From assembly GCF_019059575.1 (NCBI RefSeq), contig NW_024881782.1, positions 509,001 to 573,000 of the forward strand: a stretch of DNA of 64,000 nucleotides. Reading direction: 5' to 3'. The notes beneath the pieces were generated by a model. That model was given only the letters and a program-made list of their open reading frames with translations, was not told the origin of the DNA and did not search any database. Source of the DNA: Amphibalanus amphitrite (taxonomy: Eukaryota; Arthropoda; Thecostraca; Balanomorpha; Balanidae). Of the stretch, positions 24,598 through 54,790 are shown piece after piece. Position 1 is the stretch's first letter, and every line of letters starts with the position of its first letter. The position numbers and the translations under genes are program-made.

Positions 24598-25199
24598 CAG
24601 GGTGTCCCAAAAGTTTTGAAGCTTTTTATTTTTGTCGTATGACCGTGCTATGTCACCGGTTGAGACAAACGATACCTCAAGTGAAAGAGAATGAACGGAA
24701 GTTTTGTATTTTCATGCTTAGAGCACTACGTCAGTCAGGTGGCCCCCTTTGAGAGTCACACAAGAATGAGCGTGAGAGCGCGCGCACTCCGCTGTCAAGT
24801 TTTCCGATTTGCAACACTCCAGTGTCGCTATGTGGCCGTTTCTTCTCGGCTTCAGTCTTGTTGCCTGAAGCATACCATATAACGGCGCATTGCATTCCCC
24901 GAGGGTACATTAGCAGCAAAAAAAGTTTACTTGTCGGAAGGCTTTTTGGGTTGCTTTCACACATCTATTTCGAAAACATAGCCTCGACTTCTCGAGCGCG
25001 CTAGGAAACAGTCCGTTGCATTTTTTTTAATTAACGCAGTATTTTGGGGCTAACATAAATATCAACCTGGGGCAAATCACATCATGCATCAGAAACTTTT
25101 ATACATGTTGTTTATAAATTACCAGCTTTTATTTATTTTTATCATTGCGCATTCGCGTAGCAAGTAACTGAACTGGCTGTAGGCCTCTGGGACACCCTG
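24598..25199. mobile_element. Tc1/mariner-type non-autonomous element (CAGGGTGTCCCA ends)
   Basis: The left end is CAGGGTGTCCCA and the right end TGGGACACCCTG, an exact 12-bp inverted pair. Each is flanked by TA (24596-24597 and 25200-25201), the usual Tc1/mariner duplication. The 602 bp hold no transposase ORF. Confidence 0.85.
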
Positions 25200-25331
25200 T
25201 ATATCGCCCCTTATTTGATAAATGTTGACGTTGCAATAAAATGCCTGCTCTAACTGGCATACACAATTTGCACCTGCATGTGAGGATTTGAGGAAGTTGG
25301 CTACGCATCTTGATCATATCACAAATATGCA

Positions 25332-25340
25332 GCTGACCAG
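25332..25340 (+). repeat. Left 9-bp target-site duplication of the foldback element
   Basis: GCTGACCAG is repeated exactly at 33768-33776, directly abutting both ends of the 8.4-kb element. Confidence 0.93.
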
Positions 25341-25470
25341 ATGTAACGGAAGTTGGCACAGATTCAGCACAGGTTCAGCACAGCACAGATTCGGTAGGGG
25401 GAAAAAAGGCCCCGGTAGAGGGAAACCTTTATGACCCGTTTTCCCCTAGAAATGACGTCACAAGGAGTTA
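25341..25470 (+). repeat. Left terminal inverted repeat (unique part)
   Basis: It begins ATGTAACGG and includes CAGATTCAGCACAGG, a purine-rich GGGGGAAAAAAGG stretch and ATGACGTCA just before the first monomer. It matches the reverse complement of 33638-33767 almost base for base. Confidence 0.95.
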
Positions 25471-27510
25471 AAAATGGGTATCAATCGAAAGGTCTCGTTT
25501 ACCCAGACACAGTCCTGCAGGAAAATTTCACTTTTTCCCCATAGGAAAGTTTTTACGGGAAAATCAAAATTTTGGGTCAATGGGGGTCCCCCCCGATTTC
25601 GTTCAAAATCGGCACAGAGGTGCCCCACCACCAGCCGAGAAACTTTCCCCAAAACGGTCCCCGTTGCATTGACGTTTAAGGCCCGTAAAGCCCCCTAGAC
25701 TCGTAAAATATCCGTAAAATCGCCTTTGTACGGACCAAAAAGTGGTGCTATGGTAAAAATGGGTATCAATCGAAAGCTCTCGTTTACCCAGACACAGTCC
25801 TGCAGGAAAATTTCACTTTTTCCCCATAGGAAAGTTTTTACGGGAAAATCAAAATTTTGGGTCAATGGGGGGTCCCCCCCGATTTCGCTCAAAATCGGCA
25901 CAGAGGTGCCCCACCACCAGCCGAGAAACTTTCTCCAAAACGGTCCCCGTTGCATTGACGTTTAAGGCCCGTAAAGCCCCCTAGACTCGTAAAATATCCG
26001 TAAAATCGCCTTTGTACGGACCAAAAAGTGGTGCTATGGTAAAAATGGGTAACAATCGAAAGCTCTCGATTACTCAGACACAGTCCTGCAGGAAAATTTC
26101 ACTTTTTCCCCATAGGAAAGTTTTTACGGGAAAATCAAAATTTTGGGTCAATGGGGGGTCCCCCCGATTTCGTTCAAAATCGGCACAGAGGTGCCCCACC
26201 ACCAGCCGAGATACTTTCCCCAAAACGGTCCCCGTTGCATTGACGTTTAAGGCCCGTAAAGCCCCCTAGACTCGTAAAATATCCGTAAAATCGCCTTTGT
26301 ACGGACCAAAAAGTGGTGCTATGGTAAAAATGGGTATCAATCGAAAGCTCTCGTTTACCCAGACACAGTCCTGCAGGAAAATTTCACTTTTTCCCCATAG
26401 GAAAGTTTTTACGGGAAAATCAAAATTTTGGGTCAATGGGGGGTCCCCCCCGATTTCGTTCAAAATCGGCACAGAGGTGCCCCACCACCAGCCGAGAAAC
26501 TTTCCCCAAAACGGTCCCCGTTGCATTGACGTTTAAGGCCCGTAAAGCCCCCTAGACTCGTAAAATATCCGTAAAATCGCCTTTGTACGGACCAAAAAGT
26601 GGTGCTATGGTAAAAATGGGTATCAATCGAAAGCTCTCGTTTACCCAGACACAGTCCTGCAGGCAAATTTCACTTTTTCCCCATAGGAAAGTTTTTACGG
26701 GAAAATCAAAATTTTGGGTCAATGGGGGGTCCCCCCCGATTTCGCTCAAAATCGGCACAGAGGTGCCTTACCACCAGCCGAGAAACTTTCTCCAAAACGG
26801 TCCCCGTTGCATTGACGTTTAAGGCCCGTAAAGCCCCCTAGACTCGTAAAATATCCGTAAAATCGCCTTTGTACGGACCAAAAAGTGGTGCTATGGTAAA
26901 AATGGGTATCAATCGAAAGCTCTCGTTTACCCAGACACAGTCCTGCAGGAAAATTTCACTTTTTCCCCATAGGAAAGTTTTTACGGGAAAATCAAAATTT
27001 TGGGTCAATGGGGGGTCCCCCCCGATTTCGTTCAAAATCGGCACAGAGGTGCCCCACCACCAGCCGAGAAACTTTCCCCAAAACGGTCCCCGTTGCATTG
27101 ACGTTTAAGGCCCGTAAAGCCCCCTAGACTCGTAAAATATCCGTAAAATCGCCTTTGTACGGACCAAAAAGTGGTGCTATGGTAAAAATGGGTATCAATC
27201 GAAAGCTCTCGTTTACCCAGACACAGTCCTGCAGGCAAATTTCACTTTTTCCCCATAGGAAAGTTTTTACGGGAAAATCAAAATTTTGGGTCAATGGGGG
27301 GTCCCCCCGATTTCGTTCAAAATCGGCACAGAGGTGCCCCACCACCAGCCGAGAAACATTCCCCAAAACGGTCCCCGTTGCATTGACGTTTAAGGTCCGT
27401 AAAGCCCCCTAGACTCGTAAAATATCCGTAAAATCGCCTTTGTACGGACCAAAAAGTGGTGCTATGGTAAAAATGGGTATCAATCGAAAGCTCTCGTTTA
27501 CCCAGACACA
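25471..27510 (+). repeat. Left satellite arm, about seven 286-bp monomers
   Basis: The monomer landmark TTTGTACGGACCAAAAAGTG recurs every 285-286 bp (near 25720, 26006, 26291, 26577, 26863, 27149 and 27435). The copies are over 97% alike by eye. Length differences come from the GGGGGGTCCCCCCC run. The last copy is cut at CCCAGACACA (27510). Confidence 0.97.
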
Positions 27511-27589
27511 TTGACCCCCATTGACCCAAAATTTTGATTTTTCCGTAAAAACTTTCCTATGGGGAAAAAGTGAAATTTGCCTGCAGGAC
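27511..27589. repeat. Palindrome centre (79-bp unpaired loop)
   Basis: The left arm stops inside one monomer at 27510 and the right arm resumes, inverted, so that pairing restarts at 27590. The intervening 79 bp (from TTGACCCCCATTGACCC to CTGCAGGAC) belong to the right-arm monomer only, so they would form the loop of a giant hairpin. Confidence 0.88.
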
Positions 27590-30500
27590 TGTGTCTGGGT
27601 AAACGAGAGCTTTCGATTGATACCCATTTTTACCATAGCACCACTTTTTGGTCCGTACAAAGGCGATTTTACGGATATTTTACGAGTCTAGGGGGCTTTA
27701 CGGGCCTTAAACGTCAATGCAACGGGGACCGTTTTGGGGAAAGTTTCTCGGCTGGTGGTGGGGCACCTCTGTGCCGATTTTGAACGAAATCGGGGGGGAC
27801 CCCCCATTGACCCAAAATTTTGATTTTCCCGTAAAAACTTTCCTATGGGGAAAAAGTGAAATTTTCCTGCAGGACTGTGTCTGGGTAAACGAGAGCTTTC
27901 GATTGATACCCATTTTTACCATAGCACCACTTTTTGGTCCGTACAAAGGCGATTTTACGGATATTTTACGAGTCTAGGGGGCTTTACGGGCCTTAAACGT
28001 CAATGCAACGGGGACCGTTTTGGGGAAAGTTTCTCGGCTGGTGGTGGGGCACCTCTGTGCCGATTTTGAACGAAATCGGGGGGGACCCCCCATTGACCCA
28101 AAATTTTGATTTTCCCGTAAAAACTTTCCTATGGGGAAAAAGTGAAATTTTCCTGCAGGACTGTGTCTGGGTAAACGAGAGCTTTCGATTGATACCCATT
28201 TTTACCATAGCACCACTTTTTGGTCCGTACAAAGGCGATTTTACGGATATTTTACGAGTCTAGGGGGCTTTACGGGCCTTAAACGTCAATGCAACGGGGA
28301 CCGTTTTGGGGAAAGTTTCTCGGCTGGTGGTGGGGCACCTCTGTGCTGATTTTGAACGAAATCGGGGGGACCCCCCATTGACCCAAAATTTTGATTTTCC
28401 CGTAAAAACTTTCCTATGGGGAAAAAGTGAAATTTTCCTGCAGGACTGTGTCTGGGTAAACGAGAGCTTTCGATTGATACCCATTTTTACCATAGCACCA
28501 CTTTTTGGTCCGTACAAAGGCGATTTTACGGATATTTTACGAGTCTAGGGGGCTTTACGGGCCTTAAACGTCAATGCAACGGGGACCGTTTTGGGGAACG
28601 TTCCTCGGCTGGTGGTGGGGCACCTCTGTGCCGATTTTGAACGAAATCGGGGGGACCCCCCATTGACCCAAAATTTTGATTTTCCCGTAAAAACTTTCCT
28701 ATGGGGAAAAAGTGAAATTTGCCTGCAGGACTGTGTCTGGGTAAACGAGAGCTTTCGATTGATACCCATTTTTACCATAGCACCACTTTTTGGTCCGTAC
28801 AAAGGCGATTTTACGGATATTTTACGAGTCTAGGGGGCTTTACGGGCCTTAAACGTCAATGCAACGGGGACCGTTTTGGAAAAAGTTTCTCGGCTGGTGG
28901 TGGGGCACCTCTGTGCCGATTTTGAACGAAATCGGGGGGGACCCCCCATTGACCCAAAATTTTGATTTTCCCGTAAAAACTTTCCTATGGGGAAAAAGTG
29001 AAATTTTCCTGCAGGACTGTGTCTGGGTAAACGAGAGCTTTCGATTGATACCCATTTTTACCATAGCACCACTTTTTGGTCCGTACAAAGGCGATTTTAC
29101 GGATATTTTACGAGTCTAGGGGGCTTTACGGGCCTTAAACGTCAATGCAACGGGGACCGTTTTGGGGAAAGTTTCTCGGCTGGTGGTGGGGCACCTCTGT
29201 GCCGATTTTGAACGAAATCGGGGGGGACCCCCCATTGACCCAAAATTTTGATTTTCCCGTAAAAACTTTCCTATGGGGAAAAAGTGAAATTTTGCTGCAG
29301 GACTGTGTCTGGGTAAACGAGAGCTTTCGATTGATACCCATTTTTACCATAGCACCACTTTTTGGTCCGTACAAAGGCGATTTTACGGATATTTTACGAG
29401 TCTAGGGGGCTTTACGGGCCTTAAACGTCAATGCAACGGGGACCGTTTTGGGGAAAGTTTCTCGGCTGGTGGTGGGGCACCTCTGTGCCGATTTTGAACG
29501 AAATCGGGGGGACCCCCCATTGACCCAAAATTTTGATTTTCCCGTAAAAACTTTCCTATGGGGAAAAAGTGAAATTTGCCTGCAGGACTGTGTCTGGGTA
29601 AACGAGAGCTTTCGATTGATACCCATTTTTACCATAGCACCACTTTTTGGTCCGTACAAAGGCGATTTTACGGATATTTTACGAGTCTAGGGGGCTTTAC
29701 GGGCCTTAAACGTCAATGCAACGGGGACCGTTTTGGGGAAAGTTTCTCGGCTGGTGGTGGGGCACCTCTGTGCCGATTTTGAACGAAATCGGGGGGGACC
29801 CCCCATTGACCCAAAATTTTGATTTTCCCGTAAAAACTTTCCTATGGGGAAAAAGTGAAATTTTCCTGCAGGACTGTGTCTGGGTAAACGAGAGCTTTCG
29901 ATTGATACCCATTTTTACCATAGCACCACTTTTTGGTCCGTACAAAGGCGATTTTACGGATATTTTACGAGTCTAGGGGGCTTTACGGGCCTTAAACGTC
30001 AATGCAACGGGGACCGTTTTGGGGAAAGTTTCTCGGCTGGTGGTGGGGCACCTCTGTGCCGATTTTGAACGAAATCGGGGGGGACCCCCCATTGACCCAA
30101 AATTTTGATTTTCCCGTAAAAACTTTCCTATGGGGAAAAAGTGAAATTTTCCTGCAGGACTGTGTCTGGGTAAACGAGAGCTTTCGATTGATACCCATTT
30201 TTACCATAGCACCACTTTTTGGTCCGTACAAAGGCGATTTTACGGATATTTTACGAGTCTAGGGGGCTTTACGGGCCTTAAACGTCAATGCAACGGGGAC
30301 CGTTTTGGGGAAAGTTTCTCGGTTGGTGGTGGGGCACCTCTGTGCCGATTTTGAACGAAATCGGGGGGGACCCCCCATTGACCCAAAATTTTGATTTTCC
30401 CGTAAAAACTTTCCTATGGGGAAAAAGTGAAATTTTCCTGCAGGACTGTGTCTGGGTAAACGAGAGCTTTCGATTGATACCCATTTTTACCATAGCACCA

Positions 30501-33500
30501 CTTTTTGGTCCGTACAAAGGCGATTTTACGGATATTTTACGAGTCTAGGGGGCTTTACGGGCCTTAAACGTCAATGCAACGGGGACCGTTTTGGGGAAAG
30601 TTTCTCGGCTGGTGGTGGGGCACCTCTGTGCCGATTTTGAACGAAATCGGGGGGGACCCCCCATTGACCCAAAATTTTGATTTTCCCGTAAAAACTTTCC
30701 TATGGGGAAAAAGTGAAATTTTCCTGCAGGACTGTGTCTGGGTAAACGAGAGCTTTCGATTGATACCCATTTTTACCATAGCACCACTTTTTGGTCCGTA
30801 CAAAGGCGATTTTACGGATATTTTACGAGTCTAGGGGGCTTTACGGGCCTTAAACGTCAATGCAACGGGGACCGTTTTGGGGAAAGTTTCTCGGCTGGTG
30901 GTGGGGCACCTCTGTGCCGATTTTGAACGAAATCGGGGGGGGGACCCCCCATTGACCCAAAATTTTGATTTTCCCGTAAAAACTTTCCTATGGGGAAAAA
31001 GTGAAATTTTCCTGCAGGACTGTGTCTGGGTAAACGAGAGCTTTCGATTGATACCCATTTTTACCATAGCACCACTTTTTGGTCCGTACAAAGGCGATTT
31101 TACGGATATTTTACGAGTCTAGGGGGCTTTACGGGCCTTAAACGTCAATGCAACGGGGACCGTTTTGGGGAAAGTTTCTCGGCTGGTGGTGGGGCACCTC
31201 TGTGCCGATTTTGAACGAAATCGGGGGGGGGACCCCCCATTGACCCAAAATTTTGATTTTCCCGTAAAAACTTTCCCATGGGGAAAAAGTGAAATTTTCC
31301 TGCAGGACTGTGTCTGGGTAAACGAGAGCTTTCGATTGATACCCATTTTTACCATAGCACCACTTTTTGGTCCGTACAAAGGCGATTTTACGGATATTTT
31401 ACGAGTCTAGGGGGCTTTACGGGCCTTAAACGTCAATGCAACGGGGACCGTTTTGGGGAAAGTTTCTCGGCTGGTGGTGGGGCACCTCTGTGCCGATTTT
31501 GAACGAAATCGGGGGGGACCCCCCATTGACCCAAAATTTTGATTTTCCCGTAAAAACTTTCCTATGGGGAAAAAGTGAAATTTTCCTGCAGGACTGTGTC
31601 TGGGTAAACGAGAGCTTTCGATTGATACCCATTTTTACCATAGCACCACTTTTTGGTCCGTACAAAGGCGATTTTACGGATATTTTACGAGTCTAGGGGG
31701 CTTTACGGGCCTTAAACGTCAATGCAACGGGGACCGTTTTGGGGAAAGTTTCTCGGCTGGTGGTGGGGCACCTCTGTGCCGATTTTGAACGAAATCGGGG
31801 GGGACCCCCCATTGACCCAAAATTTTGATTTTCCCGTAAAAACTTTCCTATGGGGAAAAAGTGAAATTTTCCTGCAGGACTGTGTCTGGGTAAACGAGAG
31901 CTTTCGATTGATACCCATTTTTACCATAGCACCACTTTTTGGTCCGTACAAAGGCGATTTTACGGATATTTTACGAGTCTAGGGGGCTTTACGGGCCTTA
32001 AACGTCAATGCAACGGGGACCGTTTTGGGGAAAGTTTCTCGGCTGGTGGTGGGGCACCTCTGTGCCGATTTTGAACGAAATCGGGGGGGACCCCCCATTG
32101 ACCCAAAATTTTGATTTTCCCGTAAAAACTTTCCTATGGGGAAAAAGTGAAATTTTCCTGCAGGACTGTGTCTGGGTAAACGAGAGCTTTCGATTGATAC
32201 CCATTTTTACCATAGCACCACTTTTTGGTCCGTACAAAGGCGATTTTACGGATATTTTACGAGTCTAGGGGGCTTTACGGGCCTTAAACGTCAATGCAAC
32301 GGGGACCGTTTTGGGGAAAGTTTCTCGGCTGGTGGTGGGGCACCTCTGTGCCGATTTTGAACGAAATCGGGGGGGACCCCCCATTGACCCAAAATTTTGA
32401 TTTTCCCGTAAAAACTTTCCTATGGGGAAAAAGTGAAATTTTCCTGCAGGACTGTGTCTGGGTAAACGAGAGCTTTCGATTGATACCCATTTTTACCATA
32501 GCACCACTTTTTGGTCCGTACAAAGGCGATTTTACGGATATTTTACGAGTCTAGGGGGCTTTACGGGCCTTAAACGTCAATGCAACGGGGACCGTTTTGG
32601 GGAAAGTTTCTCGGCTGGTGGTGGGGCACCTCTGTGCCGATTTTGAACGAAATCGGGGGGGACCCCCCATTGACCCAAAATTTTGATTTTCCCGTAAAAA
32701 CTTTCCTATGGGGAAAAAGTGAAATTTTCCTGCAGGACTGTGTCTGGGTAAACGAGAGCTTTCGATTGATACCCATTTTTACCATAGCACCACTTTTTGG
32801 TCCGTACAAAGGCGATTTTACGGATATTTTACGAGTCTAGGGGGCTTTACGGGCCTTAAACGTCAATGCAACGGGGACCGTTTTGGGGAAAGTTTCTCGG
32901 CTGGTGGTGGGGCACCTCTGTGCCGATTTTGAACGAAATCGGGGGGGACCCCCCATTGACCCAAAATTTTGATTTTCCCGTAAAAACTTTCCTATAGGGA
33001 AAAAGTGAAATTTTCCTGCAGGACTGTGTCTGGGTAAACGAGAGCTTTTGATTGATACCCATTTTTACCATAGCACCACTTTTTGGTCCGTACAAAGGCG
33101 ATTTTACGGATATTTTACGAGTCTAGGGGGCTTTACGGGCCTTAAACGTCAATGCAACGGGGACCGTTTTGGGGAAAGTTTCTCGGCTGGTGGTGGGGCA
33201 CCTCTGTGCCGATTTTGAACGAAATCGGGGGGGACCCCCCATTGACCCAAAATTTTGATTTTCCCGTAAAAACTTTCCTATGGGGAAAAAGTGAAATTTT
33301 CCTGCAGGACAGTGTCTGGGTAAACGAGAGCTTTCGATTGATACCCATTTTTACCATAGCACCACTTTTTGGTCCGTACAAAGGCGATTTTACGGATATT
33401 TTACGAGTCTAGGGGGCTTTACGGGCCTTAAACGTCAATGCAACGGGGACCGTTTTGGGGAAAGTTTCTCGGCTGGTGGTGGGGCACCTCTGTGCCGATT

Positions 33501-33637
33501 TTGAACGAAATCGGGGGGGACCCCCCATTGACCCAAAATTTTGATTTTCCCGTAAAAACTTTCCTATGGGGAAAAAGTGAAATTTTCCTGCAGGACTGTG
33601 TCTGGGTAAACGAGAGCTTTCGATTGATACCCATTTT
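27590..33637 (-). repeat. Right satellite arm, about 21 inverted 286-bp monomers
   Basis: The reverse-complement landmark recurs 21 times at 285-288-bp steps between 27,660 and 33,381, plus a partial outer unit. Long runs of identical copies (29,945-30,803 and 31,665-33,095) alternate with variants: AAA-to-CAA after CTGCAGG, and shorter or longer G/C runs. Open frames of about 80 codons on both strands in every unit are shadows: the 286-bp period is not a multiple of three. Confidence 0.97.
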
Positions 33638-33767
33638 TACCTCCTTGTGACGTCATTTCTAGGGGAAAACGGGTCATAAAGGTTTCCCTCTACCGGGGCC
33701 TTTTTTCCCCCTACCGAATCTGTGCTGTGCTGAACCTGTGCTGAATCTGTGCCAACTTCCGTTACAT
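33638..33767 (-). repeat. Right terminal inverted repeat (unique part)
   Basis: It is the reverse complement of 25341-25470 and ends CTTCCGTTACAT, followed directly by the 9-bp duplication. Confidence 0.95.
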
Positions 33768-33776
33768 GCTGACCAG
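33768..33776 (+). repeat. Right 9-bp target-site duplication
   Basis: GCTGACCAG is identical to 25332-25340. Confidence 0.93.
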
Positions 33777-36437: not shown

Positions 36438-36523
36438 CCCCTCTCCGTAGGTACGATAAAATTCTATGGGTGCGGTGGCATAGTGTACGTATATATGTTA
36501 CAGGCAAAGTGAAAACTCGGGCA

Positions 36524-36685
36524 TTTTGCAAAATGCCTAGGCAATTTGCAAAATGCCTGACCCGCCAGGCATTTTGCAAAATGCCCAGGCAGTTTGCAAA
36601 CTGCCTGACCCACCAGGCATTTTGCAAACTGCCTAGGCACTTTACAAAATGCCTGACCCGCCAGGCATTTTGCAAAATGCCTGGG
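36524..36685 (+). repeat. Left arm of tandem 18-bp palindromes
   Basis: Three 48-bp units plus a final palindrome. Variants such as GGCAGTTTGCAAACTGCC keep perfect dyad symmetry because both halves changed together. Confidence 0.93.
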
Positions 36686-38175: not shown

Positions 38176-38336
38176 AGGCATTTTGCAAAATGCCTGGAAA
38201 AATATTTCAGGCAGTTTGCAAAATGCCTGGTGGGTCAGGCAGTTTGCAAACTGCCTGGGCATTTTGCAAAATGCCTGGCCGGTCAGGCATTTTGCAAATT
38301 GCCTAGGCATTTTGCAAAATGCCCGAGTTTTCACTT
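38176..38336 (-). repeat. Right arm of tandem 18-bp palindromes
   Basis: It is the inverted counterpart of 36524-36685 with the same order of palindrome variants. One internal spacer is changed to GAAATATTTTTCC. Confidence 0.92.
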
Positions 38337-52431: not shown

Positions 52432-52945
52432 AAATCAAGATCCAGGATCCTCAAGGTCCCACGGCAAATTCAATTTTTAGAATCCAAGGTTTCCAAGGTC
52501 CAACGGCAAATTCAATTCCTAGAATCCAAGGTTTCCAAGGTCCCACGGCAAATTCAATTTCTAGAATCAAGGTTTCCAAGGTCCCACGGCAAACTCAATT
52601 TCTAGAATCCAAGGTTTCCAAGGTCCCACGGCAAATTCAATTTCTAGAATCCAAGGTTTCCAAGGTCCCATAGCAAGTATACTTTGCAGGGTCCACAGTC
52701 CCCAAGGTCCCACGACAAGAATGCATTGCAGGATCCACAGTCCCCAAGGTCCCACGACAAGAATGCATTGCAGGATCCACAGTCCCTAGGGTCCCACGAC
52801 AAGTGTGAATTTCAGGATCCACAGTCCCCAAGGTCCCATGACAAGAACACACTTCAGAGTTCAGGGTCCACAGTCGTCGAGGTCCCACGGCAAGAATACA
52901 TCTCAGGATCCAAAGTATTCAGGGTCCCACAACAAGAACTTAAAC
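52432..52945. repeat. 42-bp minisatellite array, first block
   Basis: About twelve units with the core CCAAGGTCCCACGGCAA. Two subtypes are seen: one with ATTCAATTTCTAGAATC (52,440-52,670), the other with GAATGCATTGCAGGATCC (52,680-52,945). The period is a multiple of three, so several frames stay open and encode 14-residue peptide repeats. Confidence 0.93.
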
Positions 52946-54236: not shown

Positions 54237-54790
54237 CAGGGTCCTTAGTGGCCCATGTGCAACATAAACCTCATGGTCCAGCTTCCAGGATTCTTGAGGT
54301 CCCTTAACAAAATGATGGTGTAGGTCCAGACCGTTCTCCTAAGATCCCATGACAAATAATAAAACTGGTACTGAAGGTCTGCATTCTGCAGGGTCTTGCA
54401 GCATACCAAAATTTTGAGGTCCTAACCTCTGGGTTTCCATGGTTTTACGGCATATGAAATGTTGAGGTCCTGGGTTTCTAAGGTCTCATGTCACATGAAA
54501 TGTTGATGTCCTGGGATTCCAAGGTCTCACGGCATATGCAAATGTTGAGGTCCTGGGATTCCAAGGTCTCGCGACATATGCAAATGTTGAGGTCCTGGGA
54601 TTCCAAGGTCTCGCGGCATATGGATGCTTTAAGGTCCTGGGATTCCAAGGTCTCGCGGCATATGGATGTTTTAAGGTCCTGGGTTTCCAAGGTCTCGCGA
54701 CAAAAATGACAATGCAAGGTCCAGGATCCATCAAGGTCCCAGACCTTGGACTCTGCGAACCCTGGATCTCGGATCTTTTTGGGACCTTGG
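54237..54790. repeat. 42-bp minisatellite array, second block
   Basis: The best units (54,465-54,720) are 42 bp with core GGGATTCCAAGGTCTCRCGR followed by CATATGCAAATGTTGAGGTC. Outer units are decayed. Same period, core and orientation as the block at 52.4 kb. Confidence 0.9.

Follow-up and report, generated by a model that had tools for sequence, protein, structure and literature searches.

Long tandem arrays that stand head to head raise the question of whether such a locus is a satellite containing an inversion or a single inserted unit and, if it is an inserted unit, how it moves and why its two arrays are so alike. We addressed this for a locus in Amphibalanus amphitrite that lies within a window of 64,000 nucleotides (the whole stretch of DNA that was analysed). 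The features of the locus, in window coordinates, are as follows.

25332..25340, no strand: left target-site duplication, GCTGACCAG, which is present as a single copy at the empty site (L060)
25341..25467, plus strand: left terminal inverted repeat, 127 bp, starting with ATGTAACGGAAG, matching the right one at 127/127 positions
25468..27510, plus strand: left arm, about 7 tandem 286-bp monomers
27511..27514, no strand: hinge, where the arms meet head to head and out of phase, with 4 filler bases
27515..33640, minus strand: right arm, about 21 tandem 286-bp monomers on the opposite strand
33641..33767, minus strand: right terminal inverted repeat, 127 bp
33768..33776, no strand: right target-site duplication, GCTGACCAG

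The element itself spans positions 25341-33767 (8,427 bp), starting with ATGTAACGGAAG and carrying the reverse complement of that sequence at its other end. It is flanked on both sides by GCTGACCAG (25332-25340 and 33768-33776, 9/9 matching), and the adjacent bases do not lengthen the match. The terminal inverted repeats (25341-25467 and 33641-33767) are identical over 127 bp, with the first mismatch at position 128. Tandem Repeats Finder (TRF) detected a 286-bp period in each arm, on opposite strands, with 7.2 copies and 98% matches on the left (25469-27510) and 21.4 copies and 99% matches on the right (27515-33641). Across six frames of the element, no open stretch exceeded 95 codons. These measurements bear out a preliminary description of the locus, which had reported an exact 9-bp duplication, terminal repeats of ~130 bp, head-to-head arrays of ~286-bp monomers and no coding sequence.

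The window contains other repeats. Positions 24641-25200, in the left flank of the element, resemble a dispersed repeat (72-79% alike) that occurs dozens of times, frequently as an inverted pair of neighbouring copies, and that perhaps represents another palindromic element. Positions 36520-36682 and 38209-38323 consist of 48-bp tandem repeats of GGCATTTTGCAAAATGCC-like palindromes, and two arrays with a 42-bp period (52448-52938 and 54429-54699) have units with a CCAAGGTC-type core, the relationship between these arrays being judged by eye only.

If the element is an inserted unit, as had been proposed, a site without it should carry one copy of the duplicated target. We searched the genome assembly (807.55 Mb in 2,644 contigs; we label contigs C and fetched loci L, each with a number) with the 700 bases to the left of the element, and found a second copy of this flank on C389 with 93% identity. 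In the 1.2 kb read at this site (L060), the left flank runs directly into the right flank with one GCTGACCAG between them; hence, the break falls exactly at 25340/25341. A 7.9 kb element on C8 also has an exact empty site, on C1537, with one AAATATGGA. No second copy of the flank of a third element, on C105, was detected in the assembly, such that exact empty sites were found for two of the three elements tested. Since paired cuticle-gene clusters are found on different contigs, C389 and C1537 are likely to be retained haplotypes rather than duplicated segments. All 150 scored candidates for the cuticle domain Chitin_bind_4 (PF00379) exceeded the cut-off, as suits an arthropod host, and a search for a hemocyanin domain gave no match, nor did its control. 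Among 20 element pairs including that of the window, which were chosen from the top of the list or for their length and hence not at random, we identified 12 exact 9-bp duplications, two 9-bp duplications with 8/9 matching positions, two duplications of 10 bp and one of 8 bp. Duplications of 8-10 bp were thus associated with 17 of 20 element pairs, as compared to 0 of 380 mismatched flank pairs. None was detected for the second copy on C5 or for the elements on C9 and C148. The preliminary description had named two observations that would speak against it, namely arms with no terminal repeats or duplications, and an empty-site break away from 25340/25341; neither was seen in the copies examined, yet the three element pairs just named have no target duplication.

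A search for other copies of the terminal repeat, which had been suggested at the outset, revealed a large family. Allowing for up to 2 mismatches, a terminal 21-mer matched 308 places in the assembly (148 forward, 160 reverse), and a reversed-pattern control matched none. Of the first 100 exact ends listed, 88 form 44 facing pairs, assembled by hand, that span 3.4-25.9 kb with a median of 7.6 kb, and the remaining 12 have no exact partner in the list. Elements of equal or almost equal length, which could be sister insertions or duplicates, occur on different contigs (7,890 bp each on C8 and C28; 7,873 and 7,874 bp on C24 and C27). We conclude that the window element, with its 9-bp duplication and its exact empty site, is a discrete and recently moved insertion, and one of a family whose ends number in the hundreds.

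We fetched nine further elements, chosen mainly by length and not at random, for a total of ten with the window element. All ten have tandem inverted arms; eight of the nine fetched elements consist of arms, several of them interrupted by other inserted sequence, and only the element on C105 has a large middle. The longest arms extend to ~11 kb in C13, and C39 has up to 35 full monomers in one arm. The copies that were read have arms of tandem 286-bp units, with a common starting register behind the conserved 127-bp terminal repeat: the outer junction between terminal repeat and arm is identical in 17 of 20 arms, differs in sequence at the same register in two, and is interrupted in one. The right arms of C148 and C22 (L013 and L022) have a variant outer junction that is GGGTAAAAAACCACACC or close to it, which points to an additional subtype of end and initial monomer.

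The preliminary description had pictured the element as a possible route by which satellite DNA is carried by transposition. Monomers are of two types, a and B. A 43-base stretch of type a matched 2,828 places in the assembly and one of type B matched 1,059, with no matches for controls. In the first 100 type a places, the monomer is flanked by two paired exact ends in 88 cases and is inside a single end in 12 (one on C7, 11 on C9); the corresponding numbers for the first 100 type B places are 86 and 14 (one on C3, two on C5, 11 on C9). Hence, 174 of the 200 listed places are between two exact ends and 26 are inside one, no more than 7.5 kb from it, and there was no monomer away from element ends among these 200 places (100 of 2,828 and 100 of 1,059, from the first contigs). 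Capture of an independent satellite by the transposon was therefore rejected for the places listed, and the earlier picture is not supported by them; the 286-bp repeat seems to belong to the transposon as its arm, and not to be a satellite acquired from elsewhere. The same data bear on the simplest alternative, that the locus is an ordinary satellite containing a chance inversion. The 286-bp units, with 98-99% matches inside the arrays, are what such a locus would contain, but the terminal repeats, target duplications and exact empty sites refute this explanation for the copies examined and, together with the position of all 200 listed monomers at or inside element ends, leave it with a negligible probability. 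It is possible that free monomer arrays occur in later contigs or in unassembled heterochromatin.

A relative with a Mutator-like (MULE-type) transposase between the same ends had been anticipated, and we found one copy with a MULE-like gene (C105:775220-801085). This element is 25,866 bp long, with the same ends (identical at 127/127 positions), a target duplication with 8/9 matching positions, and a 17.4-kb core between arms of 4,410 and 3,761 bp. The core includes a 1,882-codon open frame that is preceded by a splice-acceptor-like sequence and lies 9.6 kb downstream of the left arm. The frame comprises, in order, a 162-bp minisatellite repeated 11 times, a DDE-like core, a 60-bp minisatellite repeated 11 times, and a Ulp1-type domain. 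The in-frame minisatellites are at L040:4852-6650 (162 bp x 11) and L040:8883-9548 (60 bp x 11), and two relatives, L059 and L061, have different repeats at both of the corresponding places. A 71-bp tandem repeat is found in the C105 core (at L040:1097-2798 and more widely) and at L059:7663-9501, upstream of the 39%-identical transposase gene of C961.

The Ulp1-type domain matched Peptidase_C48 above the Pfam cut-off (1.7e-8) and SENP1 with phmmer (1.2e-5). The sole Pfam match of the DDE part was PF10551 (MULE), at 0.048 for a long piece and 0.0063 for a short piece, both below the curated cut-off of 27.6 bits; PF10551 was also the sole Pfam match of the DDE part of L063, a 58% relative on C5, at 1.5e-4 and likewise below that cut-off, and was not matched by L059 or L061. 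MULE transposases have a D-D-E triad with a CxxH motif between the second D and the E. In an alignment of three relatives, D270, D343, C385xxH388 and E542 are invariant, which matches this signature; their catalytic role is putative. The DDE alignment matched no solved structure. We found no Pfam match to a PHD finger in the three scanned pieces of the C105 frame, and no match to FLYWCH in the pieces scanned, with HMMER filters dropping most matches above 0.1. The absence of FLYWCH does not exclude the Phantom group, because some Phantom members have neither the finger nor SWIM, according to the part of the source consulted (PMC6446971).

Comparison of a 601-aa piece of the C105 protein to the assembly (100 candidates, 73 scored) identified one copy with 100% identity; the other long matches were no more than 58% identical, and C848 has a 55-residue fragment with 78% identity. 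Relatives of the C105 transposase occur in 16 stop-free frames of 1,092-2,549 codons; ten relatives with 38-39% identity, on C370, C961, C417, C53, C1209, C132, C414, C823, C571 and C1072, have frames of 1,092-1,450 codons. In L061 (C1:353500-362400), a 49% relative, the open frame continues at the place expected for Ulp1 into other sequence, which we take to be retrotransposon-like. Relatives on C122 and C433 were considered as a bridge to strong PF10551 matches and were rejected, as these are neighbouring but different stretches. From its structure, C105 is probably the autonomous form, or partner, of the core-less family; the term "autonomous" reflects the structure of the one full copy found. 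Its arms are of type B, and it may not be the direct source of the core-less elements, which are mostly of type a.

We considered whether some other transposase moves the foldback elements, the core of C105 being no more than an acquisition at the hinge, from a separate MULE or by gene capture. Consistent with this, there is a single full copy and its arms are of type B; 111 PF10551 matches elsewhere in the assembly provide alternative sources; and three related transposase loci (L059, L061 and L063, ~9 kb of each) have no match to the terminal repeat or the monomer beyond 17-base chance matches, such that the possibility of related loci with the same arms was rejected for these stretches, although the left arm of C105 is as far as 9.6 kb from its frame. 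However, the edges of the C105 core have no duplication (a 7-base match is offset from the boundary) and no inverted repeat stronger than those of shuffled sequence, on which basis a separate insertion at the hinge was rejected. Moreover, 9-bp duplications suit a MULE-type enzyme, and C105 keeps identical ends and an 8/9 duplication. We therefore regard a different transposase as unlikely. The core-less copies pose a related question, namely how they came to be without a core. The nine core-less elements have eight different pairs of hinge phases, all inside the arms, with one pair shared by C21 and C51; these phases were derived from exact 15-mers and are approximate. No core sequence was detected in any of the nine (E 1e-20, low-complexity filter on), and the only core matches in this comparison were to L059 and, at 77-79%, to sequence flanking another copy on its outer side (L005). 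Since the outer junction is largely constant and the hinges vary and have no detectable core, we infer that the element keeps a fixed outer boundary, acquires a new inner one, and loses its core in one piece. The pattern of hinges would be expected both if the core were lost between arms that have folded together and if arms were joined head to head. Under the latter explanation, core-less copies would arise not by deletion but when two broken ends that bear arms are joined, by palindrome formation of the kind seen in fold-back repair. Placement of all nine hinges inside the arms, with no detectable core, is as expected for such joining, and the hinges of C25 and C1 come close to symmetry, with phase offsets of 9 and 14 bases; in contrast, the other seven hinges are at least 37 bases out of phase (approximate values). 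End joining is a credible explanation that we nevertheless consider less likely than not.

Loss of the core where the arms meet would be one consequence of pairing between the arms, and exchange between them would be another. We compared 344 full monomers from the ten elements. Mean identity was 0.980 for neighbouring monomers, 0.982 for other monomers of the same arm, 0.981 for monomers from opposite arms of the same element, and 0.9605 for monomers of different elements. Each element also has variants of its own. At aligned position 148, G is present in 7/7 left-arm and 21/21 right-arm monomers of the window element and in 0/316 monomers elsewhere; a private variant of C39 is present in 29/35 and 21/31 monomers of its arms (0/278 elsewhere), and one of C105 in 14/15 and 7/12 (0/317 elsewhere). 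Among private variants seen at least twice, 25 of 64 are in both arms, as compared to 43 expected if they were distributed at random over the element. All eight private variants with at least 10 copies are in both arms, low-copy variants are mostly confined to one arm, and variants of intermediate frequency occur in both arms in C148 (8/24 and 7/21) and, at another site, in C39 (5/35 and 5/31). The window element and six of the other eight core-less elements have purely type a monomers; in C13 and C25, types a and B are interspersed in both arms. No offset between the arms gave a mirror order better than shuffled order in the nine testable elements (C22 has too few left monomers), and the idea that the arms are mirror copies of each other was rejected on this basis. 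We infer that a variant first spreads inside one arm and later crosses to the opposite one, through conversion or exchange between the inverted repeats. The main rival to this interpretation is that a single monomer, or a small number of them, was recently amplified into both arms, either ahead of insertion or in the course of it, with no continuing exchange. Joint amplification is in line with the lack of mirror order and with the confinement of most low-copy variants to one arm, but does not readily account for private variants that are at intermediate frequency in both arms (C148, C39); it is a serious possibility, albeit one to which we give less than an even chance. Sharing between arms is incomplete, and could be inherited rather than continuing, or could be affected by the assembly of long repeats; assembly effects may blur the order and length of arrays but are an unlikely source of variants found nowhere else. 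Our proposal that exchange between inverted arms in each element keeps the arms alike, and that the core is lost whole where the arms meet, is a tentative one, with somewhat less than an even chance of being correct.

These considerations suggest a life cycle for the family. Transposase from a full copy of the C105 type would bind the ends, cut the element out and insert it with a 9-bp stagger. Loss of the core between the two arms would yield a core-less copy with a new hinge in the arms, and this derivative would still be mobile. Arm length would shift by unequal exchange or slippage, and conversion or exchange between the inverted repeats would pass variants across the arms, leaving them alike and able to fold back. 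It is highly probable, in our judgement, that the window element is a non-autonomous, foldback-type cut-and-paste DNA transposon, a judgement that applies jointly to this assignment and to the proposed life cycle. If the proposal is correct, folding back is part of the life cycle: it would make, lengthen and homogenise a satellite-like repeat inside one transposon, and would repeatedly turn full copies into core-less ones. Two questions become testable, namely by what means the arms lengthen and keep their likeness, and whether transposons are a place where satellite-like arrays arise. Private variants that are fixed in both opposite arms (28/28 monomers in the window element, 0/316 elsewhere) offer a direct means of following exchange between inverted repeats.

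Drosophila FB and FB-NOF elements have tandemly repeated inverted arms and 9-bp duplications, as does the family described here, but their arm units are much shorter. Plant Mutator relatives include a DDE-type transposon gene with a Ulp1-type protease. By description, the joining of a DDE-type gene to a Ulp1-type domain in C105 is similar to that in these plant elements and to that in Ginger, where the gene is integrase-related (PMC2836005). In what follows, we compare the family to published elements as described in the parts of the sources consulted. Tm1 of root-knot nematodes has composite terminal repeats of foldback type and 9-bp duplications, with one element encoding a Mutator-type transposase and others being non-autonomous; it differs in having a repeat motif of ~14 bp and a 496-aa Phantom-like transposase (PMC3169594). 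Galileo of Drosophila is similar in that its long terminal repeats grow by means of tandem direct repeats, and differs in having a transposase of the P-element superfamily; its authors propose that terminal repeats of such length attract recombination and conversion (PMC3573991). A 2026 survey of arthropod MULEs covers elements of up to 10 kb with terminal repeats of up to 1,193 bp, and treats Rehavkus as an outgroup, and its main text nowhere uses the terms foldback, tandem or barnacle (PMC13359780). Among the matches listed in our literature search, as judged from titles and the openings of abstracts (subscription papers and Repbase being outside its scope), there was neither a foldback family with 286-bp units nor an animal MULE carrying a Ulp1 domain.

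Within the literature covered, the closest described cases we saw are Rehavkus-1_TC and Tetris. Rehavkus-1_TC, from Tribolium castaneum, is 9.5 kb long, with one open reading frame and inverted termini that contain 164-bp satellite monomers, mostly in 5 and 8 copies (PMC10218199); Rehavkus elements have 9-bp duplications, a PHD finger and a minisatellite (PMC6446971). The two families share an arthropod host, 9-bp duplications and tandem satellite-like monomers in inverted termini. They are set apart, by description, by the 25.9 kb of the full copy and the 286-bp monomers here, with up to 35 full monomers per arm, and by the Ulp1-type domain of C105, in whose scanned pieces the PHD finger of Rehavkus was not found. 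Tetris, from Drosophila virilis, shares the foldback plan, with ~220-bp tandem monomers in its terminal inverted repeats, 8-10-bp duplications and non-autonomous copies (PMC4079207). It is described from three complete copies, with terminal repeats of up to 1.7 kb, no autonomous partner found, and arrays that also occur outside the element (PMC4079207); here, by contrast, there are hundreds of ends, arms of up to ~11 kb (C13), a candidate partner, and no free array among the listed places. No source of transposase was found for Tetris (PMC4079207); for the present family, a single assembly offers a candidate coding partner together with exact empty sites and ends by the hundred. The preliminary description had suggested an undescribed FB/Mutator-like family; the full copy with its MULE-like gene is in line with the Mutator-like part, and "undescribed" is too strong for the kind of element, since the plan is known from Rehavkus-1_TC and Tetris. 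The anatomy is known in kind, and what is new relative to the portions of these sources covered, with Repbase outside the comparison, is the size of the element, the length of its arms, the Ulp1-type domain and the pattern of variants between arms.
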